Shown here: one piece after another, positions 1,154 to 51,086 of the stretch
Layout of the letters: every line of letters begins with the position of its first letter
Position numbering within the stretch: the stretch's first letter is position 1
DNA from: Planctomicrobium piriforme
Lineage (GTDB): Bacteria > Planctomycetota > Planctomycetia > Pirellulales > UBA1268
Direction of reading: 5' to 3'
Assembly: GCA_945869735.1 (NCBI GenBank)
Contig: CAMBPQ010000015.1
Coordinates: forward strand, 1-53,357
Length of the DNA stretch: 53,357 nucleotides
Translations under genes and position numbers: made by a program
The notes under the pieces: generated by a model
Seen by the model: only the letters and a program-made list of their open reading frames with translations
What the model was told of the DNA's origin: nothing
Databases searched by the model: none

Positions 1154-3568
1154 GTGCCTTCCTCGAATGCCGCATCCCTGAACGTATCCCAGCGTCAGGC
1201 CGCGTCCCACGTCGAGGGACCGCTCCTGGTGCTGGCAGGGCCTGGAAGCGGCAAGACCCGGGTGGTGACGCATCGGATCGCCAACCTGATCTCCTCAGGG
1301 GTTCCTCCCGAACGGATCGTCGCGCTGACCTTCACCAACAAGGCGGCTGACGAGATGCGGCGGCGTGTCACCGAGTTGGTGGGGCCCCAGCCCGTGGAGA
1401 TGGGCACATTCCACCGCTTCGGGGCCCGGCTCCTCCGCCGTCACGCGCGGCAGGTGGGCCTGACGAGCGATTACTCGATTCTCGATCCCAACGACGCCGC
1501 TGGTGTCCTCAAGCGCGCGGTGAAGTCGCTCGGACTCACCGCGACGCACACCCCCGTTGACCGGATCGCGGGCGTGATCTCCCGCGCGAAGAACGACCTC
1601 CTCACACCCTCGACCTTCCAGCCGCGCTGGGGCAAGCCGGTCGATGACGTCGCGCTGCGAGTCTGGCCGACCTACCAACAGTTGCTGCTGCGGGCCAACT
1701 CGGTCGACTTCGACGACCTACTCGTGCACGTCGCCACGCTCCTGGCCGAGGATCCCGAACTCCGCCGCCAACTCGACGCCCGCCACCGATTCATCCTTGT
1801 CGACGAATATCAGGATACCAACGCCGTCCAATACTGCATCCTCCGCGGACTCTCGATTGACCATCCGAATCTTGCCGTCACCGGCGACCCCGATCAGGCG
1901 ATCTACGGCTGGCGGGGCGCCAGTATCCGCAATATTCTCGAGTTTGAACGGGACTATCCGGCTGCGACGGTCGTGAAGCTCGAGGACAACTACCGCAGCA
2001 CCGCCAATATCCTCGGTACAGCCGATCGCCTCATCGCCCACAACTCGCGGCGCAAGCCGAAGCGGCTGGTCACGACGGCGGCGCCGGGCGCACCGGTGCG
2101 GATTGTTCTCGATGGCTCAGGGCTCGAGGAGGCCGAGCGGATCGCCGCGGAGATCGCGCAGGCCTCGGCGGCCGGCCGGCGATCGCTCCGCGACTTCGCG
2201 ATTCTGTTTCGGGCCAATGCTTTGTCGCGGTCGTTCGAACTCGCGCTGCGAACCCGCGGCATCGCCTACCAGCTCGTTCGCGGCCTTGAGTTTTTCAAGC
2301 GGCGTGAGATTCGCGATGTGGTCGCGTGGCTGCGGCTGCTGCGAAACCCCCGTGACGACGAGGCGATGCTCCGCGTGGTCAACGTGCCGCCGCGGGGCAT
2401 TGGCCGGCAGTCGCTCGACCGGCTGGCGGCCTGGGCCGATGACCATGCCGCCACGCGGCTGGAGGCCGCGATGAAGGCCGCCGGGATCCCCGGGATGCCC
2501 AAGCGGGCGGCCACGGCGTTGGCTGCGTTTGCCAGGCTGCACGCCGAGCTCGCGGCTACCGCCGGCCGGGAGCCCTCCGTGGCGGCCTTGCTGGAGGCCG
2601 TGCTCGACCGCACCGGCTATCGGGCGATGCTTGCCGAGGATCAGGATGACGATGAAGAAGGGCAGGATCGTTTGGCGAACGTGGAGGAACTGGTCACCGC
2701 CGCGCGGCAGTTCGACGACACGTTCGCTCCCGCCCCGGCCACAGGCACCGAGGCCACCGACGCCCTGGGGGGCTTTCTGGAGACGACGGCCCTCGTCGCC
2801 GACACCGACGTCTGGGACTCGGCCGCCGACCGGGTCGCGCTGATGACGTTTCATGCCGCCAAGGGCCTCGAGTTTCCCGTCGTCTATCTTGTCGCCATGG
2901 AAGACGGCATCCTGCCCCACGAGCGGAGCCTCGGCAATCCCGAGCAACTCGAGGAGGAACGCCGCCTCGTGTTCGTCGGGATCACGCGAGGGCGCGAGGA
3001 GGTCCATGCCAGTTGCGGGAGGATGCGCGACTACCGTGGCACCCGACGCATCTCGGCACCGAGTGTGTTTCTTGCCGAGATGCAGGGGTCGGAGACGGAG
3101 GTGGTCGGCGAGGAAGCCCCTCGCGGCCATGACGGCTTCGATCCCTTCGGAGATGCCGCCCGTCGTGCCGGCGGCGAGTTCGACGATCTCTCGCAGGAGC
3201 CGCCGCCCGACCGGAGTATCGCCACGCCCCGCATCTCCCGTGGCGACGGCCTCACCATGGATCTCGACGATTCCCAAGACGAGTCGGCGGTCCGGCCAGC
3301 GCCCCCGCCGCGACGTCGCGTCCTCGATGCCGCGATCGAGCGGGCCACGGATCTCGCCCTGCGGATGGCCGGCGGATCGCGTCCGAAGCAGCAGTATGAG
3401 CCGGGCCAGCGAGTGCGGCACGCCGACTACGGCGAGGGACTGCTCGCGGGCATCAGTGGCACAGGGCCGCGTGCGGTGGGCACGGTGATCTTCGACGGTC
3501 CGGCCGGCATGCGCAAGTTCGTTCTCAGTCACGGCGTCCTCGAGCAGCCTGAAAGCGCATCCGACTGA
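1154..3568 (+). CDS. pcrA: PcrA/UvrD-type superfamily 1 DNA helicase
   Basis: An ATP-dependent 3'-5' DNA helicase of 804 residues with the full SF1A motif set. It has Walker A GPGSGKT (29-35), TFTNKAADEM, the Walker B motif DEYQDT (217-222), GDPDQAIYGWRGA, EDNYRST, MTFHAAKGLEFPVV and VGITRGREEV. The C-terminal part after about residue 640 is low complexity. It ends in a small domain with YEPGQRVRHADYGEG and GTVIFDG, like the Tudor-type PcrA/UvrD tail that binds RNA polymerase. It would act in repair, replication-fork clearance and removal of stalled transcription. The start is GTG at 1154; no strong ribosome binding site is visible, so the first few residues are uncertain. The gene has its own divergent promoter region (981-1153) and ends next to a repeat cluster. 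Confidence 0.93.
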   Translation: MPSSNAASLNVSQRQAASHVEGPLLVLAGPGSGKTRVVTHRIANLISSGVPPERIVALTFTNKAADEMRRRVTELVGPQPVEMGTFHRFGARLLRRHARQVGLTSDYSILDPNDAAGVLKRAVKSLGLTATHTPVDRIAGVISRAKNDLLTPSTFQPRWGKPVDDVALRVWPTYQQLLLRANSVDFDDLLVHVATLLAEDPELRRQLDARHRFILVDEYQDTNAVQYCILRGLSIDHPNLAVTGDPDQAIYGWRGASIRNILEFERDYPAATVVKLEDNYRSTANILGTADRLIAHNSRRKPKRLVTTAAPGAPVRIVLDGSGLEEAERIAAEIAQASAAGRRSLRDFAILFRANALSRSFELALRTRGIAYQLVRGLEFFKRREIRDVVAWLRLLRNPRDDEAMLRVVNVPPRGIGRQSLDRLAAWADDHAATRLEAAMKAAGIPGMPKRAATALAAFARLHAELAATAGREPSVAALLEAVLDRTGYRAMLAEDQDDDEEGQDRLANVEELVTAARQFDDTFAPAPATGTEATDALGGFLETTALVADTDVWDSAADRVALMTFHAAKGLEFPVVYLVAMEDGILPHERSLGNPEQLEEERRLVFVGITRGREEVHASCGRMRDYRGTRRISAPSVFLAEMQGSETEVVGEEAPRGHDGFDPFGDAARRAGGEFDDLSQEPPPDRSIATPRISRGDGLTMDLDDSQDESAVRPAPPPRRRVLDAAIERATDLALRMAGGSRPKQQYEPGQRVRHADYGEGLLAGISGTGPRAVGTVIFDGPAGMRKFVLSHGVLEQPESASD

Positions 3569-3573
3569 TACGG

Positions 3574-3699
3574 CCACGAGGGGGCGGCAAAAGTCTCGTC
3601 GCTGAGGGCCGCGGCGGCTCAGGCGCTCCTCGAGCGTTCGCCGACCCCCTTGCCTCCCTTTTCCAGTTTGCCAAGTCGCCGCTACCGCTATCCGAAATG
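3574..3699 (-). repeat. dispersed repeat module B, copy 1
   Basis: This copy of the B family lies just after the helicase stop codon, in reverse orientation. Diagnostic strings are GGGGGCGGCAAAAGTCTCGT and CTCCTCGAGCGTTCGCCGAC. The central hairpin segment differs from the commonest version: here the pairing arms are CTGAG and CTCAG. The outer end (ATGCGCTCT) runs into module A. Confidence 0.8.
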
Positions 3700-3738
3700 C
3701 GCTCTAGCAACGGTGTGGAGCGGGGCGGGGTGCGACCC

Positions 3739-3779
3739 GCATTCCCCGCGCTAGCACTTGGGGCTTCCTGACGGGAGGC
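3739..3779 (+). repeat. dispersed repeat module A, copy 1
   Basis: The core is GCATTCCCCGCGCTAGCAC followed by TTGGGGCTTCCTGACGGGAGGC. Two hairpins are possible: CCCC pairs with GGGG around a GC-rich loop, and GCTTCC pairs with GGGAGGC around TGACG. The preceding stretch from 3700 (GCGGGGTGCGACCC region) is shared with the copy near 16520-16560. Confidence 0.8.
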
Positions 3780-3805
3780 ACGCCGCTCGGATGTTCAACA
3801 CGTCT

Positions 3806-3967
3806 CCCGATCATGAGGAGCCGGTCGGAGGCACGCGCAGAAGCCGGGGCATCTTTGCGACTCACGAACAATGCCCAGTCGGCCAAGCGGGCATCCTGTA
3901 GCAAAATCCCCCGGCGCCGAGCATGTCACCGCCGGCGAACCAATCCGGTATTGTTTCGATGCTATCC
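3806..3967 (+). repeat. dispersed repeat module C, copy 1
   Basis: One of four copies of an approximately 160-base element. The invariant block GCATCCTGTAGCAAAATCC is at 3891-3909. It is followed by a hairpin whose arms are CCGGCG and CGCCGG around GAGCATGTCA. The element runs without a gap into module A copy 2. Confidence 0.8.
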
Positions 3968-4040
3968 GCATTCCCCGCGCTCGCGCTTCGGACTTCCTGA
4001 CGGGAGGCAAGGGGGTCGGCGAACGCTTGAGGAGCGTCTG
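3968..4040 (+). repeat. module A copy 2 fused to a partial module B
   Basis: Module A (3968-4008) ends in CTGACGGGAGGC and passes directly into AAGGGGGTCGGCGAACGC, the first part of module B, which breaks off near 4040. The gene-free stretch 3569-4053 consists almost wholly of these repeats; I see no other gene in it. Confidence 0.75.
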
Positions 4041-4053
4041 ATCGCCAAGGTCA

Positions 4054-11850: not shown

Positions 11851-11940
11851 GGGGTGAGCCTGATCCTCGTCGTGCATGGCCCCGTGATGGTTGTGGGAGA
11901 AGCCGCCGATCCGGCCCGCAGTCACGGTGGTACCGGCAGG

Positions 11941-12073
11941 AGCGGCGAGATGGCACCTTTGAGAAGGGAGGCAAGGGGGTCGGCGAACGCTCGAGGAGCC
12001 TGGGCGTATCCTCGCCCCGGCGACGAGACTTTTGCCGCCCCCGAGCCGGCGTTCCACGTAAGTCGGATGCGAT
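11941..12073 (+). repeat. dispersed repeat module B, copy 2
   Basis: Forward copy with GGGAGGCAAGGGGGTCGGCG, the GGGCGTATCCTCGCCC hairpin, GACGAGACTTTTGCCGCCCC and the right end CCACGTAAGTCGGATGCG. It lies between the dead kinase and the porin gene. Confidence 0.8.
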
Positions 12074-14562: not shown

Positions 14563-15351
14563 ATGAACCACTCGACCTCGCCAAACACCGATCGCCTGCC
14601 GCCGGCCGTCGGCTGCGACGCGGGCCTCATCTTCGCGGTGCCGATCGAGGCCGCTGCCTTCGAACGGCTCGCCACCGACCGCATCGAGGTCCGGGCCGCC
14701 ACCGTGACGTTTCAGCAGGGAATCGTGGCCGGTCATCGCGTCGTCTGGTGCGTGTCGGGCATCGGCGCCGAAGCGGCCGCGGCGGCGACCCGGCTGCTCA
14801 TCGACGGCCATCGTCCACGACTTGTGATCACGGCGGGATTCGCAGGTGGCCTCGATCCGGCGCTCACCCGCGGCAGCGTCGTACGGCCGGTCGTCAGCGT
14901 GGTGGAACCCACCATGCCCCCGCTGTCGCTGGCGCCGTTTGGCGTCGCGGCCTGGCCGGCCTCGCCCCAGGTCACGATCGTCACCGTGCCGTCGGTGATC
15001 GCGACGGTGGAGGCGAAGCGGCAGCTCGCGGCGCGATCCGGCGCGCAGGTGGTCGACATGGAAACCCACGCCGTGGCTTCCGTCGCGCGGGCTGCGGGCC
15101 TTGACTGCGCGTCGGTCCGCGTGGTCTCCGACGACGCGTCGCAGGAGCTGCCCCGCGAGGTCGCGGCGCTCGCCGCTCCGCAGCCGCCACTACGGAGGCT
15201 GGGCTCCGTAGTCGGGGCGATCGGGAAGCGGCCCCGGGCCGCCGTCGACCTCTGGCGGCTCTGGGAGCATGCCGTCATCGACGGTCGCACGCTCGCGGAG
15301 GCGCTCGCAGACCTGCTGCGGTCGCTCCCTGGGAGGCCCTCAACCTCTTGA
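14563..15351 (+). CDS. phosphorylase/nucleosidase family protein, possible HpnG
   Basis: A 262-residue member of the PNP/MTAN nucleoside phosphorylase superfamily. LIFAVPIEAAAF opens the fold, CVSGIGAEAAAAAT and VITAGFAGGLDPAL form the phosphate/ribose region, and VVDMETHAVASVARAAG contains the purine-binding Met-Glu. VRVVSDDASQ carries the catalytic Asp. The family includes MTA/SAH nucleosidase and HpnG, the nucleosidase that releases adenine from adenosylhopane. Because hpnE, hpnD, hpnC, hpnH and shc lie within 15 kb, HpnG is attractive, but sequence alone does not exclude a general nucleosidase. An in-frame ATG at 14506 overlaps the previous gene; 14563 is preferred. Confidence 0.75.
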   Translation: MNHSTSPNTDRLPPAVGCDAGLIFAVPIEAAAFERLATDRIEVRAATVTFQQGIVAGHRVVWCVSGIGAEAAAAATRLLIDGHRPRLVITAGFAGGLDPALTRGSVVRPVVSVVEPTMPPLSLAPFGVAAWPASPQVTIVTVPSVIATVEAKRQLAARSGAQVVDMETHAVASVARAAGLDCASVRVVSDDASQELPREVAALAAPQPPLRRLGSVVGAIGKRPRAAVDLWRLWEHAVIDGRTLAEALADLLRSLPGRPSTS

Positions 15352-15489
15352 CGGCGAACGCTGGAGGAGCGTCGGGCCGCCGCGGCGATAGAGCGACGAG
15401 ACTTTTGCCGCCCCCGAGCCGGCGATCCGAATCGCCGCCACGGCAGTCGTGACCGCAAGGGCGACGACGAAACGGGTGCAGCGCGTCAT
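15340..15489 (-). pseudogene. truncated secreted protein cut by module B
   Basis: The start ATG (15487-15489) overlaps the stop of the LRR lipoprotein gene as ATGA, so the two were coupled. The peptide starts MTRCTRFVVALAVTTAVAA, a plausible export signal. After about 22 codons it runs into repeat B and stops at 15340, 49 residues in all. The original body of the gene is gone. The family cannot be recognised. Confidence 0.55.
15350..15433 (+). repeat. dispersed repeat module B, copy 3 (shortened)
   Basis: It begins at the stop codon of the nucleosidase gene (CGGCGAACGCTGGAGGAGCG). It has a GCCGCCGCGGC hairpin in place of the commoner one, followed by GACGAGACTTTTGCCGCCCC. It lies between two convergent genes. 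Confidence 0.75.
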
Positions 15490-16256: not shown

Positions 16257-16559
16257 CGTCGCCAATCGTACACTGTCGGCTTCGCGACACGACCAACGTC
16301 CGCCGGTGCCCGTGCGGCAGTGGGTGATCTCCATTCCAAAATGGCTGCGCCCCGGTAGCTCATCGACCGCTCATCGACCGGCAAACGTGGTCACGTGGTG
16401 GCGGAGTGATGCCTTGACCGATTCCCATTCGGCCGGTGTGAGTATCGTCGGCATCGGGTCAGACTCGGCGTCGTCGAAGTAACACAGGCCGGCGAGCACG
16501 CGAGTCACGCACGTTGGATGCGCTCTCGCAGCGGTGTGGAGCGGGGCGGGGTGCTACCC

Positions 16560-16600
16560 GCATTCCCCGCACTTGCGCTTGGGGCTTCCTGACGGGAGGC
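16560..16600 (+). repeat. dispersed repeat module A, copy 4
   Basis: GCATTCCCCGCACTTGCGC then TTGGGGCTTCCTGACGGGAGGC. The flank from 16520 matches the flank of copy 1. It continues directly into module B. Confidence 0.8.
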
Positions 16601-16721
16601 ACGGGGGTCGGCGAACGCTCGAGGAGCCTCGGGCGTATCCTCGCCCCGGCGACAATCCGCAGGACCGCGCAGCGGCGACTTTTGCCGCCCGCCAGCCGGC
16701 GATCCACAGAAGTCGAAGACG
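16593..16721 (+). repeat. dispersed repeat module B, copy 4
   Basis: It shares the GGGAGGC seam with module A, then GGGGGTCGGCGAACGCTCGA, a GGGCGTATCCTCGCCC hairpin, about 20 extra bases (ATCCGCAGGACCGCGCAGC), and ACTTTTGCCGCC. It lies inside the broken toxin gene. Confidence 0.8.
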
Positions 16722-16752
16722 ATCTGAACCGGCGGCAGCACGTCTTTGTGCA

Positions 16753-21293: not shown

Positions 21294-21326
21294 CGGTAGC
21301 GCGGAGTGGGACGAGGTAGCGAGCGG

Positions 21327-21365
21327 ATTCCCCGCACTCGCGCTTGGGGCTTCCTGGCGGAAGGC
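21327..21365 (+). repeat. dispersed repeat module A, copy 5
   Basis: ATTCCCCGCACTCGCGC then TTGGGGCTTCCTGGCGGAAGGC, 30 bases after the ispH stop. It begins a repeat cluster that fills the gap 21294-21683; no other gene is seen there. Confidence 0.8.
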
Positions 21366-21390
21366 GGCCTCACGGATGATCGAAACGATT

Positions 21391-21551
21391 TCCGATCGTG
21401 AGGAGCCGGCGGTGGCACGCACAGACGCCGGGGAATCTTTGCGACTCACGAGCAACGCCCCGTCGGCCACGCGGGCATCCTGTAGCAAAATCCCCCGGCG
21501 GCGAGCATGTCACCGCCGGCGAACCAATCCAGCACCGTCTCAATGCCACCC
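21391..21551 (+). repeat. dispersed repeat module C, copy 2
   Basis: The clearest copy. GATCGTGAGGAGCCGG opens it, and TCGTGAG (21395-21401) pairs with CTCACGA (21443-21449). The invariant GCATCCTGTAGCAAAATCC is at 21474-21492. A perfect 7-bp hairpin follows (CCGGCGG and CCGCCGG around CGAGCATGTCA). It continues straight into module A copy 6. Confidence 0.85.
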
Positions 21552-21674
21552 GCATTCCCCGCGCTCGCGCTTGGGGCTTCCTGAAACGGAAACACCGCCG
21601 GCGAACCAATCCAGCACCGTCTCAATGCCACCCGCATTCCCCGCACTCGCGATTGGGGCTTCCTGGCGGGAGGC
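21511..21674 (+). repeat. 82-bp tandem duplication of a C-tail plus A unit
   Basis: The end of module C with module A (21511-21589) is repeated 82 bases downstream (21593-21674). The first 50 bases of the two copies look identical apart from one loop base; they include CACCGCCGGCGAACCAATCC and TCAATGCCACCCGCATTCC. Module A copies 6 (21552-21589) and 7 (21634-21674) are the two ends of this duplication. Confidence 0.85.
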
Positions 21675-21683
21675 GGCGCGATT

Positions 21684-25970: not shown

Positions 25971-26010
25971 GCCTCCCGTCAGGAAGCCCCACGCGCGAGC
26001 GCGGGGAATA
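25971..26010 (-). repeat. dispersed repeat module A, copy 8
   Basis: Reverse-orientation A (GCCTCCCGTCAGGAAGCCCC then ACGCGCGAGCGCGGGGAATA). It shares a further CGCTCACCACCTCGG with the copy 126 bases downstream. Confidence 0.8.
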
Positions 26011-26050
26011 CGCTCACCACCTCGGCTCGCTCCCCACGACCGTCATGGTC

Positions 26051-26137
26051 GCCACCCGTTTTCCCATCGCTTGCGCTCCGGGCTTCTTGGGGCCACGCCT
26101 CCCGTCAGGAAGCCCCACGCGCGAGCAAGGGGAATAC
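26051..26137. repeat. degenerate forward A (copy 9) and reverse A (copy 10)
   Basis: At 26051-26094 a weathered forward copy (GCCACCCGTTTTCCCATCGC, TTGCGCTCCGGGCTTC). At 26097-26137 a clean reverse copy (GCCTCCCGTCAGGAAGCCCC, ACGCGCGAGCAAGGGGAATA). It ends about 20 bases from the hpnH stop. Confidence 0.7.
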
Positions 26138-26157
26138 GCTCACCACCTCGGCCGGCT

Positions 26158-27273
26158 TCAGGCCACGCGGTCGATGACCGGTAGCGACGGAAGCCCATTG
26201 GGCTGGAGGCGAAGAGCCGGGGCCGGTGCAGCTGGGCCATCGGCGGCTCGCTTCGACTTCGGCGGACCGAAGAGCATCAGCCGGGCCGTCGCGAACATGC
26301 CCCCGAGCGAGCCAAACGTGGCTTCAACGGCTGCCGGCTCGTAGCCGCAGTGGACCATGCAATCCTGGCACTTGGCGTTGCCGCTGGCCCGGCCGTAGGC
26401 ATCCCAGTCGGTCTCCTTCATCAGTTCGCCAAACGTCTTCGCATAGCCCTCGTCGAGGAGGTAGCACGGCCGCTGCCAGCCGAAGAGATTGTAGGTGGGC
26501 GTGCCCCACGGTCGGCACTCGAGGTCCCAGTCACCCTTGAGAAATTCGAGGAACACCGGCGACTGATTGAACTTCCAGCGGGACGGGGCGCCCTCGAGGA
26601 TCCTGCGGAAGAGCGTCTGGCTGCGCTCACGCGGCAGGAAGTGGTCCTGATCGGGAGCCTTCGAGTAGGAATAGCCGGGCGAGATCATCATGCCTTCCAC
26701 GCCGAGGGCCATCGCGTCGTCGAAGAACTTCCGGTAGCGGACGGGGTCGGCGTCGGCAAACAGCGTCGAGTTGGTGGTCACGCGAAAGCCGGCCCGACGG
26801 GCAGCCCGAATCGCCGACACCGCCATGTCGTACACACCCTCACGACAGACCGCGCGGTCGTGCTCCTCGCGGGGCCCGTCGAGATGCACGGAAAAAGCCA
26901 GGAAGGGCGAGGGCTTGAACCGCGGCAGCATCTCCTCGAGCTTGATCGCGTTGGTGCAGAGGTAGAGATACTTCTTCCGCGCCACGATCCCCGCCACGAT
27001 CTCCTCGATCTGCGGGTGGAGCAGGGGCTCGCCGCCCGGAATCGAGACCATCGGGGCACCACATTCGTCCACTGCGTTGAGGCACTGCTCGGGCGTGAGG
27101 TGCGACCGCAGCACGTCGGAGGGATGCTGGATCTTGCCGCACCCTCCGCAGGCGAGATTGCAGCGGAAGAGCGGCTCGAGCATGAGCACGAGCGGATAGC
27201 GGGCATTGCCCCGGAGCCGCTGGATCGCGACGTGGCGGAGCACGGAGATCATCTGTCCAACAGGAACGCTCAT
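26158..27273 (-). CDS. hpnH: adenosylhopane synthase HpnH (radical SAM)
   Basis: Attaches the 5'-deoxyadenosyl group of S-adenosylmethionine to hopene, the first step to side-chain-extended hopanoids. It has 371 residues with the radical SAM cluster CNLACGGC (Cys38, Cys42, Cys45), VSIPGGEPLLHPQIEEIV and LFRCNL. A C-terminal Cys group, CQDCMVHCGYEP, is typical of HpnH. The ATG (27271-27273) overlaps the shc stop as ATGA, so shc and hpnH are coupled. The last 30 residues are Ala/Pro rich. Confidence 0.94.
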   Translation of the reverse strand: MSVPVGQMISVLRHVAIQRLRGNARYPLVLMLEPLFRCNLACGGCGKIQHPSDVLRSHLTPEQCLNAVDECGAPMVSIPGGEPLLHPQIEEIVAGIVARKKYLYLCTNAIKLEEMLPRFKPSPFLAFSVHLDGPREEHDRAVCREGVYDMAVSAIRAARRAGFRVTTNSTLFADADPVRYRKFFDDAMALGVEGMMISPGYSYSKAPDQDHFLPRERSQTLFRRILEGAPSRWKFNQSPVFLEFLKGDWDLECRPWGTPTYNLFGWQRPCYLLDEGYAKTFGELMKETDWDAYGRASGNAKCQDCMVHCGYEPAAVEATFGSLGGMFATARLMLFGPPKSKRAADGPAAPAPALRLQPNGLPSLPVIDRVA

Positions 27274-29366: not shown

Positions 29367-29575
29367 GCGTTCATCCCTGATGACGTGCCTGCCGGGCGAT
29401 CCATCGCCCGCTGCCCGAACTGGGCCGGAGAATAGAGAACTCCGGTCACATCGACAAGAGCGGCCAAACAGGGGGACGGGGCCGCCGGCGGTCCGTTGCA
29501 TGCCCCACGCAGACTGGCGAAGCGACCAGGGAAGATGGGGTGACTGTACGGCCTGGATCGCATCCCAGTCTAAAG

Positions 29576-29725
29576 CGCATCTGCCTTTGGTGGAGCGGTG
29601 AGATGGAACCTTGGAGGAGGGAGGCAAGAGGGTCGGCGAACGCTCGAGGAGCCTGGGGCGTATCCTCGCCCCGGCGACGAGACTTTTGCCGCCCCCGAGC
29701 CGGCGTTCCACCAAAGTTGGATGCG
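29576..29725 (+). repeat. module B copy 5, full-length with terminal inverted repeats
   Basis: The most complete B element, 150 bases. The left end CGCATCTGCCTTTGGTGGA (29576-29594) and the right end TCCACCAAAGTTGGATGCG (29707-29725) are inverted repeats matching at 16 of 19 positions. Inside are the GGGAGGC seam, GGTCGGCGAACGCTCGAGGA, the perfect hairpin GGGGCG/CGCCCC (29655-29672) and GACGAGACTTTTGCCGCCCC. The rest of the gap 29367-29733 holds no gene; it should contain the shc promoter. Confidence 0.85.
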
Positions 29726-29733
29726 ATCTCAAG

Positions 29734-30828
29734 TCAGCCGTTTACGGAGGCCGCTGGAAACGACATCGTGATGCGGGTGCCCTCGCCACGCTTTGAATCG
29801 ACGGTCAGCGTCCCGCCGCTCGACTCCACCAGCCGCAGCGCCTTGGGGAGCCCCAGCCCGATGCCCCGGCCCGCGTCGCGGCCGCTGAAGAACGGGTCAA
29901 ACGAACGCCTCGCTTCCTCCGGATCCATACCGCGGCCGTCGTCGGACACCAGCACCAGGCAGCGACCCCCGCCGCTGTCGCCCGCCGCCTCGAGCATGAC
30001 GCGCCCCCCCGACTCGACTGCCTCGATCGCGTTGACGGCGAGCACTCGAATCGCCTCGGCGACCTGAATAGCATCGACGCGGGCAGCGATCGTCGTGGGA
30101 GGCGGACTGTATTCCAGCCGGACGCCCCGGGACTCCGCCAGGGGCCGAACCGCGTCAACCGCGCGACGAACCACCGCGTCGATGCCGACGTCGGCAGGCT
30201 GGGGTTTCGGGGGCCGGGCGAAGATCATGAGCCCGCCGATCATGTCGCGGGCCCTGAATGCCTGGTCAACGATTGTCGAGAGCCGTCGCCGCCGCTCGGG
30301 ATCACGCTCGCCAGGCAGGAGCGACTGGGCCCGCGCGGCGATGTTCGCCAGGGGATTGTTGATCTCGTGCCCGGCCCCGTAGGCCAGTTCGCGGGCCGCC
30401 TCGAGCCGGGCCTCGGTGACGGCACGATCCAAGCGACGTGCCGCCCCGTGCCCGTCGGCCACCAGAGCCAGAACGTCGAGCAGGAGCGAAGCCTCCGGGG
30501 AGAGACGCCCCCCGACCACGACAGCCTCCCCGAGTCGAGCAGGCAGCAACCGTGACACCCCATCGCCCACGGAGACATGACCGGAGCGCCGGACGGCGTG
30601 AAGCCAGGCGGCCACGGCCGGATCTTCAGCCGCGCGAACCCACGCCGCGTCATCATGCTCCACGCGGCCCGCAAGGAGCATCGATTCACAGAGGACCGCA
30701 CGCGCGAGATTGACGCACCCGTGATTGGCAAGCGCACGCGCCGGTTCGCCCGGCGGCAGCAGTGCCACGCCCGACTCCGACGAGTCAGCAATCGCCGCGG
30801 CATCCGGCAGAGATTCGCGAAATGCCAT
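29734..30828 (-). CDS. cytosolic sensor histidine kinase
   Basis: A 364-residue kinase. The H-box is YGAGHEINNPLANI with His154. The ATPase domain has LAVNAIEAVESGG (N-box), VSDDGRGMDPEEAR (G1), FDPFFSGRD (F-box) and RGIGLGLPKALRLVESSGG (G2). The N-terminal 140 residues are soluble and have no recognised sensor domain. No TM segment is visible, so it probably senses a cytoplasmic or protein signal. The nearest regulator gene is the HTH-receiver protein just upstream on the same strand, 114 bases away behind a hairpin; pairing is likely but not proved. Confidence 0.88.
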   Translation of the reverse strand: MAFRESLPDAAAIADSSESGVALLPPGEPARALANHGCVNLARAVLCESMLLAGRVEHDDAAWVRAAEDPAVAAWLHAVRRSGHVSVGDGVSRLLPARLGEAVVVGGRLSPEASLLLDVLALVADGHGAARRLDRAVTEARLEAARELAYGAGHEINNPLANIAARAQSLLPGERDPERRRRLSTIVDQAFRARDMIGGLMIFARPPKPQPADVGIDAVVRRAVDAVRPLAESRGVRLEYSPPPTTIAARVDAIQVAEAIRVLAVNAIEAVESGGRVMLEAAGDSGGGRCLVLVSDDGRGMDPEEARRSFDPFFSGRDAGRGIGLGLPKALRLVESSGGTLTVDSKRGEGTRITMSFPAASVNG

Positions 30829-35946: not shown

Positions 35947-35983
35947 CGGCTCCCGTCAGGAAGCCCCAAGCGCGGGGTGTGCG
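35947..35983 (-). repeat. dispersed repeat module A, copy 11 (shortened loop)
   Basis: Reverse A: GGCTCCCGTCAGGAAGCCCC then AAGCGCGGGG. It lacks part of the loop sequence. Confidence 0.7.
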
Positions 35984-36147
35984 GGTGGCACTGAATCGGT
36001 GCCGGAATGGTTCGCCGGGAATGACATGCTCGGCGCCGTGGATTTTGCTACAGGATGCCTGGCTGGCCGACGGGGCGTCGCTCGTGAGTCGCAAACATTC
36101 CCGGCTTCTGCGCGTGCCACCCCCGACTCCTCACGATCGGGAGTCGG
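35984..36147 (-). repeat. dispersed repeat module C, copy 3
   Basis: Reverse copy with the invariant block as GGATTTTGCTACAGGATGC at 36040-36058. The hairpin downstream of that block is damaged (one arm ATTCCCGG). The element ends 5 bases before the TIM-barrel gene stop codon. Copies of A and C fill the gap 35852-36152. Confidence 0.8.
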
Positions 36148-38371: not shown

Positions 38372-39070
38372 ATGCGCATCTCTGAGATCTATGCATCGCT
38401 TCAGGGAGAGGGGCTCCTCGCGGGCACGCCGAGCACGTTCGTGCGCACCAGCGGCTGCAATCTGCGGTGCGTGTGGTGCGACACCCCCTTCACCTCATGG
38501 GAGCCGACGGGTGAGGACATCGGGCTAGCCGACGTGCTCGCGAAGGTCGATGCGCTTCGGCAGAGGCACGTCGTCATCACCGGCGGCGAACCGCTGCTCT
38601 TCGCGGAGGTGGCCGAACTCTGCGTGGCACTCCGCCGCGCGGGATGCCACGTGACCGTCGAGACGGCGGGAACGGTGCTGCCCGTGACGTCGGAGCAAGT
38701 CGCCGACCTGATGTCGATCAGCCCGAAGCTCGCCTCGTCAACGCCGCCAGCCGACACACCGCAGCGCTGGGCGACGCGGCACGAGGCCTCGCGGCGGCGG
38801 GATGACGTGCTCCGCGGGCTGGCCGCCGCGGGTCGGCACCAGTTCAAGTTTGTGATCGACTCCGAGTCCGACCTGGCCGAGGCCTGCGGCTGGCTCGACG
38901 ACCTCGGCCTCGACGTCGACCGGGCGACGGTGTTTCTCATGCCGCAGGCTCGGACCGCCGACGAGCTCGCGCGGCGATCGACTTGGCTGGCACAAGAATG
39001 CCGGCGCCTCGGCTTCCGCCTCGCTCCGCGGCACCACATCACATGGTTTGGCAACCGCCGCGGCACGTGA
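38372..39070 (+). CDS. queE: 7-carboxy-7-deazaguanine synthase QueE
   Basis: A radical SAM enzyme of 232 residues making 7-carboxy-7-deazaguanine from the QueD product. Landmarks are EIYASLQGEGLLAGTPSTFV, the cluster motif CNLRCVWCDTPF (Cys29, Cys33, Cys36), VITGGEPLL and MSISPKLASSTP. The ATG has GGAGG upstream. It forms an operon with queC. queD is not in the window, so the pathway is completed elsewhere. Confidence 0.95.
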   Translation: MRISEIYASLQGEGLLAGTPSTFVRTSGCNLRCVWCDTPFTSWEPTGEDIGLADVLAKVDALRQRHVVITGGEPLLFAEVAELCVALRRAGCHVTVETAGTVLPVTSEQVADLMSISPKLASSTPPADTPQRWATRHEASRRRDDVLRGLAAAGRHQFKFVIDSESDLAEACGWLDDLGLDVDRATVFLMPQARTADELARRSTWLAQECRRLGFRLAPRHHITWFGNRRGT

Positions 39071-39200
39071 GCGGCGACGTGGCAAGCCAGGGGACGAAGC
39101 GAGAGGGTCGGCGAACGCTCGAGGAGCGTCGGGCCGCCGCGGCCCAGAGCGACGAGACTTTTGCCGCCCTCGAGCCGGCAAAACACCAAAGTGGAATGCG
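39071..39200 (+). repeat. dispersed repeat module B, copy 6
   Basis: It fills the whole gap between the queE stop and the glycosyltransferase stop. It has GAGAGGGTCGGCGAACGCTC, the alternative hairpin GGGCCGCCGCGGCCC and GACTTTTGCCGCCCTCGAGC. The outer pairs change together: GAGGG/CCCTC here against GGGGG/CCCCC in other copies. Confidence 0.8.
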
Positions 39201-40253
39201 TCAGCCGACCGACGCCATCGCGGCACCGCCGAGGAGTTCGATCGTCGCGCGGCCCACCTCCGCCACCGTGATCAGCCGCATGCAGTCGTTGTGCACCAAC
39301 GGGCACTCGCCGCGGTCGCATGGCGAGCAGGGCAGATCGCGGCGGATCTCCACGCATCGCCCCGCATCCGATCGGCCGATTCGGGGATCGGTCGGGCCCA
39401 CGAGCGCCACGGTGGGAACGCGGAAGCCGGCCGCAATGTGCCGGGGACCACTGTCGGACGACACTGAAACGGCGGCCCGCGCGTAGACGGCCTTCGACAG
39501 TCCCAGCGGCAGGTCGTCGATGTCGCCAAGCCCGCGCACGGCCGGAATGCCGGCGAGTTGCACGACCGCACGAGACTCCTGGCGGTCGGCCGGGCCACAG
39601 TGCACGAGGATGCGCACGCCTGGCACACGGTTGGCGATCCACCGGCCAAGCGCCGCGTGGTTCTCGACGCCCCAGGCGCGGGCGGGGCCGTTGGAACTGT
39701 TGTCGTTGAGCACGACGAGCGGGCCGGAGCAGCCGGGGAAGAGTGCGGCGAGCAGGGCGTCGCCCCGCGCGAGGTCGGCGTCGCCAACCATGAGTTCGAC
39801 ATCGAGCGGCGCCGGAGGAACGCCGATCGCGTCGGCGAGTTTCATGAAGGCCACCGGCGGAGGCACGATCGGCTCTTCGCGGTGTGAAGGAATGGCGTCG
39901 GTGAGCAGCCAGCGGCGGCAGCGACCGACATAGCCGACGCGCCGCCGAGCGCCGCCGGCAAAGGCAAGGGCGGCCGACGACAGCGAGTTGGGCAGCACCA
40001 GCGAGATGTCGGCCCGGTCGCGGCGCAGCGTCTGAGCCGCGGCCCCGAAGCCATGGGCGGGATTTTTCCCGTGCCGGTCGTAGAAGACGTGGTCATCGAT
40101 CCAGCCCGTGCCATCGAGCAGGTCGGCCACCACCGGCCGCATCACACCAGTGATGCGGGCGGACGTCCCGAAATGCGACTTGAGCGTGCGGAGCAGGGGA
40201 GTTGCCATGACGGCATCCCCGACCCAACGTGGCAGGATCACGGCGATATGCAT
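39201..40253 (-). CDS. GT9-family glycosyltransferase (heptosyltransferase-like)
   Basis: A 350-residue protein of the ADP-heptose:LPS heptosyltransferase family. The N-terminus MHIAVILPRWVGDAVMATPL is the family hallmark. FDxxxxF-type features are replaced by VVLNDNSSNGPARAWGVENH and LVHCGPADRQE. The nucleotide-binding end is SSDSGPRHIAAGFRVPTVAL and VGPTDPRIGRSD. CSPCDRGECPLVHNDCMRLI forms a Cys cluster common in this family. It probably adds a sugar to lipopolysaccharide core. ATG at 40251-40253. Confidence 0.88.
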   Translation of the reverse strand: MHIAVILPRWVGDAVMATPLLRTLKSHFGTSARITGVMRPVVADLLDGTGWIDDHVFYDRHGKNPAHGFGAAAQTLRRDRADISLVLPNSLSSAALAFAGGARRRVGYVGRCRRWLLTDAIPSHREEPIVPPPVAFMKLADAIGVPPAPLDVELMVGDADLARGDALLAALFPGCSGPLVVLNDNSSNGPARAWGVENHAALGRWIANRVPGVRILVHCGPADRQESRAVVQLAGIPAVRGLGDIDDLPLGLSKAVYARAAVSVSSDSGPRHIAAGFRVPTVALVGPTDPRIGRSDAGRCVEIRRDLPCSPCDRGECPLVHNDCMRLITVAEVGRATIELLGGAAMASVG

Positions 40254-40314
40254 GACGAGACCGTACCGTGAGAGCCCGCCCGCATGCAAAGCCGATTTTC
40301 ACCAAGAGAACCTA

Positions 40315-40453
40315 CGTGGATCGCCGGCTCGGGGGCGGCAAAAGTCTCGTCGCCGGGGCGAGGATACGCCCCAGGCTCCTCGAGCGTTCGCCGACCCCCT
40401 CGCCTCCCTCCTCCAAGCTGCCATCTCACCGCCACACCAAAGGCAGATGCGCT
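40315..40453 (-). repeat. dispersed repeat module B, copy 7
   Basis: Reverse copy nearly identical to copy 5 over the central 100 bases. In B orientation its left end reads CGCATCTGCCTTTGGTG; the other end (near CCTACGTGGATCGCC) has lost the inverted repeat. It sits between the permease stop and the glycosyltransferase start, both on the minus strand. Confidence 0.85.
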
Positions 40454-40474
40454 CGAAAGGCGGCCGCGGATGCG

Positions 40475-45569: not shown

Positions 45570-46001
<432 letters not shown>

Positions 46002-50603: not shown

Positions 50604-50691
50604 TGCAGCACGCGGCAGGCTCTGGCAGACCGAGCGACCGCATCACTGCCAGCCGTCGTGGTAACGCAAAGCGGGGTGACGTGGCGGGTGT

Positions 50692-50730
50692 CTTTCCCGC
50701 GCTCGCTCCTGGAGCTTCCTGACGAGAGGC
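50692..50730 (+). repeat. dispersed repeat module A, copy 12
   Basis: TTTCCCGCGCTCGCTCC then TGGAGCTTCCTGACGAGAGGC; changed on both arms (GGAG/CTCC type), 89 bases after the marC stop. Confidence 0.65.
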
Positions 50731-50741
50731 GATGCCCGCCC

Positions 50742-50900
50742 CCGATCGTGAGGAGCCGGTCGGGGGCACGCGCAGACGCCGGGGAATGTTTGCGACTCAG
50801 GAGCGATGCAGGGTCGGCCAAGCGGGCATCCTGTAGCAAAATCCCCCGGCGGCGAGCATGCCACCGCCGGCGAACCAATCCGGCACCGCATCAATGCCAC
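50742..50900 (+). repeat. dispersed repeat module C, copy 4
   Basis: GATCGTGAGGAGCCGG opens it; the invariant GCATCCTGTAGCAAAATCC is at 50826-50844. The perfect hairpin CCGGCGG/CCGCCGG follows. It runs into module A copy 13. Confidence 0.85.
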
Positions 50901-50943
50901 GCGGATTCCCAGCGCTTGCGTTGGGGGCTTCCTGACGGGAGGC
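50901..50943 (+). repeat. dispersed repeat module A, copy 13
   Basis: GCGGATTCCCAGCGCTTGCG then TTGGGGGCTTCCTGACGGGAGGC. From here to 51086 (143 bases) I see no gene or repeat. The gap 50604-51086 thus holds A, C, A and this unassigned tail. Confidence 0.75.
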
Positions 50944-51086
50944 GGTGCCGATGCGCACCGGTCTCAGCGATGTTCCGGCGGGAAGCCTTCGCGCTTTCGA
51001 TCAACGCGTGCAACGGTCTGGCGTGCTGGGCCGTTGTCTTGGAGGCGGTAAGTGGCACGTCATCGGCTGTTCGGACCAGCCGGAAG

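Follow-up and report, generated by a model that had tools for sequence, protein, structure and literature searches.

The closest described relative in kind of the element reported here is RUP (repeat unit of pneumococcus), for which IS630-Spn1 is the proposed mobilising element (PMC2229807; PMC3049150). RUP is small (107 bp), intergenic, tightly folded, bordered by TA and present in about 100 copies, and its ends resemble those of an IS630 of the same host, as is also the case here. However, RUP is confined to streptococci and rich in AT, while the present element is GC-rich; the likeness is one of kind and no sequence relation is claimed. The element also differs from RUP in that its core is conserved and covaries across many genera, and in its landing in TAG stop codons. 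The Correia/NEMIS and Nezha elements are likewise MITEs, 100-200 bp long, that are bordered by TA and give folded transcripts; an ISNpu3-like element is the proposed mover of Nezha, and promoter and RNase III functions are described for Correia elements (PMC2229807; PMC3049150). These belong to other hosts, however, and no sequence shared with them is known. GTAG REPs, which have been reported in Planctomycetes, are intergenic palindromes whose border is often the TAG stop codon of the neighbouring gene (PMC3733652), but they are 20-40 bp in length and RAYT-linked, whereas the genome studied here is without a RAYT. Literature searches returned no earlier description of the present element, which is like RUP in kind and has a conserved structured core of unexplained role.

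The element was found in a window of 53,357 nucleotides, which is the entire contig C15 of its own assembly (G000; 3.17 Mb in 128 contigs); the other G-labels denote relatives, and the gene calls were made in this analysis on genomes that are mostly fragmented assemblies. Alignment of 30 genomic copies places the full-length element, with both ends, at 29573-29728 on the plus strand (about 156 bp). The initial annotation had the right location with its 150-bp unit at 29576-29725, but set the boundaries three nucleotides short at each end. It had also proposed CGCATCTGCCTTTGGTGGA and TCCACCAAAGTTGGATGCG as terminal inverted repeats, and reading the sequence directly confirms its count of 16 of 19 paired positions, between 29576-29594 and 29707-29725. 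The consensus 30-nt ends, which correspond to 29573-29602 on the plus strand and 29699-29728 on the minus strand, agree at 23 of 30 positions, while shuffled ends agree at 8.5 on average and none of 20,000 reaches 23. Read against recent copies in the congener G014, which have TA on both sides, the left border carries the target-site dinucleotide TA at 29571-29572. At the right border (29729-29730), where well-kept copies have TA, the window element has TC, which by this comparison appears to be a changed TA. Five nucleotides from the right end, a gene on the minus strand (ORF 29734-30828) has its stop codon; its product looks, by eye, like a putative histidine kinase.

The element is very probably a non-autonomous IS630/Tc1-type MITE of about 156 bp, apparently moved in trans by an IS630-family transposase into YTAR sites. 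In such a mechanism, the transposase would act on the 25-30 bp ends (GAGCGCAT...ATGCGCTC), and insertion would occur at the TA of a YTAR site, mostly CTAG, with duplication of the TA. Absence of the element from the corresponding sites was seen in G009, the closest congener found (86-87% DNA identity over the stretches compared). There, both flanks of the window element align with 23 nt between the aligned blocks, compared to 190 in the window, and the site of copy 7 (40310-40454, minus strand; near-complete, with its right end replaced or worn) measures 76 nt compared to 170, these lengths being read from BLAST blocks since the MAFFT alignment is poor around the gap. At the copy 7 site, G009 carries a short form of the hairpin of a second repeat, module A, instead. 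The syntenic G009 stretches hold no core for the copies at 11938, 15350 and 16590, and no core adjoins the 39069 site, close to which the G009 contig begins.

Recent copies are seen in G014, where 13 of the 20 copies that were read are identical to the base and the rest nearly so, with unrelated flanks. TA is present on both sides in 19 of these 20, in the context YTA/GAGCGC...GCGCTC/TAR, so that the target duplication for which the initial annotation had proposed a check is plain in this congener. For one G014 insertion, the same convergent gene pair is found without the element in G000, G018, G021 and G013, and match coordinates place an empty site in G004 as well. The element is thus short (below about 300 bp), without a transposase gene and present in many copies, with inverted ends, target duplication and empty sites, as expected of a bacterial MITE. 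The MITE-like reading put forward at the outset is favoured by direct observation of the ends, which recur at the borders of other full-length copies, of identical copies at unrelated sites, of empty sites for both copies it had named, of TA on both sides, and of an IS630 with matching ends in congeners.

Matches to PF13358 (IS630-type transposase) occur in 12 of the 22 genomes of the genus. G014 encodes one complete IS630 (locus L106, 1012-2028; 1,017 bp) with TA on both sides, the coding sequence of which is split between two frames at a run of eight A, as is known for IS630 elements, and the DDE part matches the NCBIfam IS630 model (E 1.2e-41). Its right end, GATCGCGTCCCGTCTACGTGTAGCGGTAG, agrees in register with the left end of the element, GAGCGCATCTCCGCTACGTGTAGCGACGAG, at 20 of 30 positions, and its left end agrees with the right end of the element at 21 of 30, while shuffled ends agree at 8 on average and not one of 20,000 reaches 20 or 21. 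This agreement is far above chance, but it is not near-identity, which counts against the assignment. From the matching ends we infer that this IS630 may be the supplier of the transposase. In G014, insertion at TA with TA duplication, often at CTAG, is found together with ends common to a host IS630. In G000, only decayed IS630 remains were found, among which the relic on contig C26 keeps a left end (GAGCGCGTTTGAGATAG); the source of its own copies, about 350, is therefore not seen, which likewise counts against the assignment.

It has also been considered that the element could be a palindromic repeat of the REP/RAYT type rather than a transposon with ends, given its intergenic position, its palindromic sequence and the TAG at its border, as in GTAG REPs (PMC3733652). 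However, the size, the inverted ends of 25-30 nt and the TA on both sides are IS630-like, and a search for the Y1 transposase (PF01797) gave 0 matches in G000. A REP/RAYT origin is therefore highly improbable, and it was rejected on the absence of this enzyme.

Within the window, seven recognisable cores and one fragment were found; the initial annotation had described six further copies with a common centre and worn ends. In addition to the full-length element and copy 7, there are a copy without the left end (11938-12073, plus strand), a copy that has module A upstream of it and an additional hairpin within its core (16590-16724, plus strand), a worn copy with an inner hairpin of other sequence (39069-39201, plus strand), a worn copy (3553-3705, minus strand), a core remnant (15350-15428, plus strand), and a fragment comprising the left half of the core, attached to a copy of module A (3998-4050, plus strand). 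The near-identity of copy 7 to the window element is confirmed, with 131 of 138 positions matching (95%) and a long exact run in the core. The initial annotation took this near-identity over the central 100 or so bases as a sign of recent spread, but this core keeps about 95% identity across species as well, and central near-identity is therefore not evidence of recent copying.

Across the own genome, BLAST located the element in at least 43 places with unrelated flanks (the best 40 of 273 candidates being scored). A profile gave 53 matches in an unselected 453 kb (the window and a further 400 kb), and since copies were counted in these 453 kb only, the figure of about 350 per genome is an extrapolation. 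None of the 38 strong profile matches in the 453 kb lies within a called gene, and all strong copies examined are intergenic. Many copy borders in this genome are no longer TA on both sides, a point against the main reading. Furthermore, several congener contigs start or stop inside a copy, and such repeats may be one reason why these assemblies are fragmented.

Other repeats are found in the same stretch. Module A is a second repeat family (...CATTCCCCGCGCTCGCGCTTGGGGCTTCCTGACGGGAGGC, plus a 203-nt longer form) located at 3697-4008, 16518-16600, 21303-21679, 25971-26160, 35969-36146 and 50668-50949. It joins some copies of the element, and the left end is common to both. At 45572-45749, there are imperfect GCC-rich codon repeats in a register of three, resembling a glycine-rich protein on the minus strand.

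As the first base of the element is G and its last is C, landing in a TAG stop codon would leave TAG on either side: the host supplies TA and the element supplies G, with the mirror image at the other border. Stop codons would be harmless landing sites because the terminal G and C rebuild TAG on either side. Stop-codon placement is directly observed in 15 of the 20 recent G014 copies, where the TA is that of the stop codon of the neighbouring gene, and one more stop insertion in a 400-kb sample brings this to 16 of 21 (P ~1e-5 against a 30% share, the proportion of stops among tolerated YTAR sites, both stops and intergenic sites, in that sample). Among the other species sampled, 7 of 11 copies are in stop codons.

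This placement could reflect survivorship, in which any CTAG-like site is hit and only harmless insertions persist, an explanation to which we give slightly more credence than doubt. YTAR sites are few, and stops constitute about 24-31% of those outside coding sequence; when the alternatives are limited to the 200 nt downstream of stops, stops rise to about 46% of sites (18 vs 21). In addition, the older copies of the own genome coincide with stops in about 11 of 38 cases, close to the 24% share. Against this explanation stand the excess among recent G014 copies and the proportion in other species. Selection against other sites explains part of the stop excess. GTAG REPs, a different kind of repeat, provide a precedent, as they also supply TAG stops (PMC3733652). 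In the own genome, one element (G000:C4:33477-33630) is apparently inserted in a CTAG common to the stops of two convergent genes, with both stops intact. Borders that rebuild TAG illustrate a way for a repeat to multiply to hundreds of copies where genes are densely packed.

MITEs usually retain the ends read by the transposase while the middle drifts. Here, sequence comparison indicates that the best-conserved part is a hairpin core of about 80 nt, not the ends. In the window element, the core with its inner hairpin spans 29624-29705 on the plus strand. Across species, identity to the own consensus is about 95-96% in the core and 61% in the left arm; among 25 full-length copies of the own genome, it is about 95.5% in the core and 82-83% in the arms, in a set of copies whose detection leans on the core. 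The sequence of the inner hairpin is not constant among copies or species, and some lack it altogether, but where present it pairs: 51 distinct variants have a summed folding energy of -481 kcal/mol, compared to -215 for shuffles. In a set of 36 diverse cores, both sides have changed with pairing kept at 8 of the 18 pairs, in 27 cells, compared to 4.9 +/- 1.9 for shuffles (0 of 500 reach 27) and at most 10 for slid partners; the alignment used for this count also served to predict the structure, which favours it somewhat. Such compensatory changes could also arise in the absence of selection, through the correction of imperfect palindromes during replication.

A covariance model found the core in 32 of the 36 genomes of the family, representing 11 genera, with at least 23 matches in some genomes, but gave no match in 160 genomes from the order's other families. 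Named records containing a 22-mer of the core are planctomycete metagenome assemblies, mostly from lakes by their names. The family-restricted core is also carried by lake assemblies (L154, L175, L180 and L183, among others) titled Candidatus Kuenenia stuttgartiensis or Planctomicrobium piriforme; these titles are probably wrong. An Rfam search gave no window match at the gathering threshold and chance-level matches near the element, and a known RNA family was rejected.

These features raise the possibility that the true unit is the folded core itself, as RNA or single-stranded DNA that is selected or homogenised in its own right, with the IS630-type MITE as one vehicle. Its conservation relative to the left arm, the compensatory changes, the pairing of inner hairpins of differing sequence and the restriction to one family are all consistent with this. 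Seven G116 copies have one and the same sequence over 86 core columns, with the adjoining arms at 45-63%, and in G081 agreement is 91% in the cores but at background in the flanks, although the copies read in both genomes were chosen by core score. G018 contains cores that lack recognisable ends, and some of these form tandem arrays. One G018 locus (L288; G018:C12, about 83.7-85.2 kb) consists of tandem 261-nt units with cores and without transposon ends, and its arrays alternate with other GC-rich hairpin repeats.

On the other hand, when only the ends were searched for, the pairs lacking a core were chance matches within coding sequence and none was a credible element; since every credible end pair holds a core, ends and core travel together in G000 and G014. 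Copies without ends may furthermore be worn MITEs, as several G081 and G018 copies retain remnants of ends. A strand-specific RNA acting on neighbours is not favoured, given that copies have no orientation bias relative to flanking genes (tandem contexts 11 vs 12) and no wobble bias among all copies (149 core variants; G-T 67 vs C-A 80), and this role was rejected on the wobble counts. The 36-sequence inter-species set leans weakly towards the plus strand (about 17 G-U vs 8 A-C, excluding one constant G-U pair). We hold the core as the true unit to be a tentative reading, somewhat doubtful on present evidence.

Within the IS630-type MITE, the folded core would persist through selection, whether this serves mobility or a host function, or through conversion among the copies. 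Its preservation apart from the arms may reflect either selection on structure or conversion limited to the part that is still similar. It is conceivable, if not the likelier case, that the core represents a novel structured element confined to a single planctomycete family, a dispersed hairpin of RNA or DNA with tens to hundreds of sites in each genome. In this reading, an IS630-type MITE would have spread it, and selection or conversion between copies would maintain it irrespective of the transposon ends around it. The conservation of the core rather than the ends, the occurrence of this structured unit also without ends, and the stop-codon placement go beyond the initial annotation. A middle that is kept while the ends drift, with compensatory changes, across an uncultured freshwater planctomycete family provides a testable case of structure as cargo.
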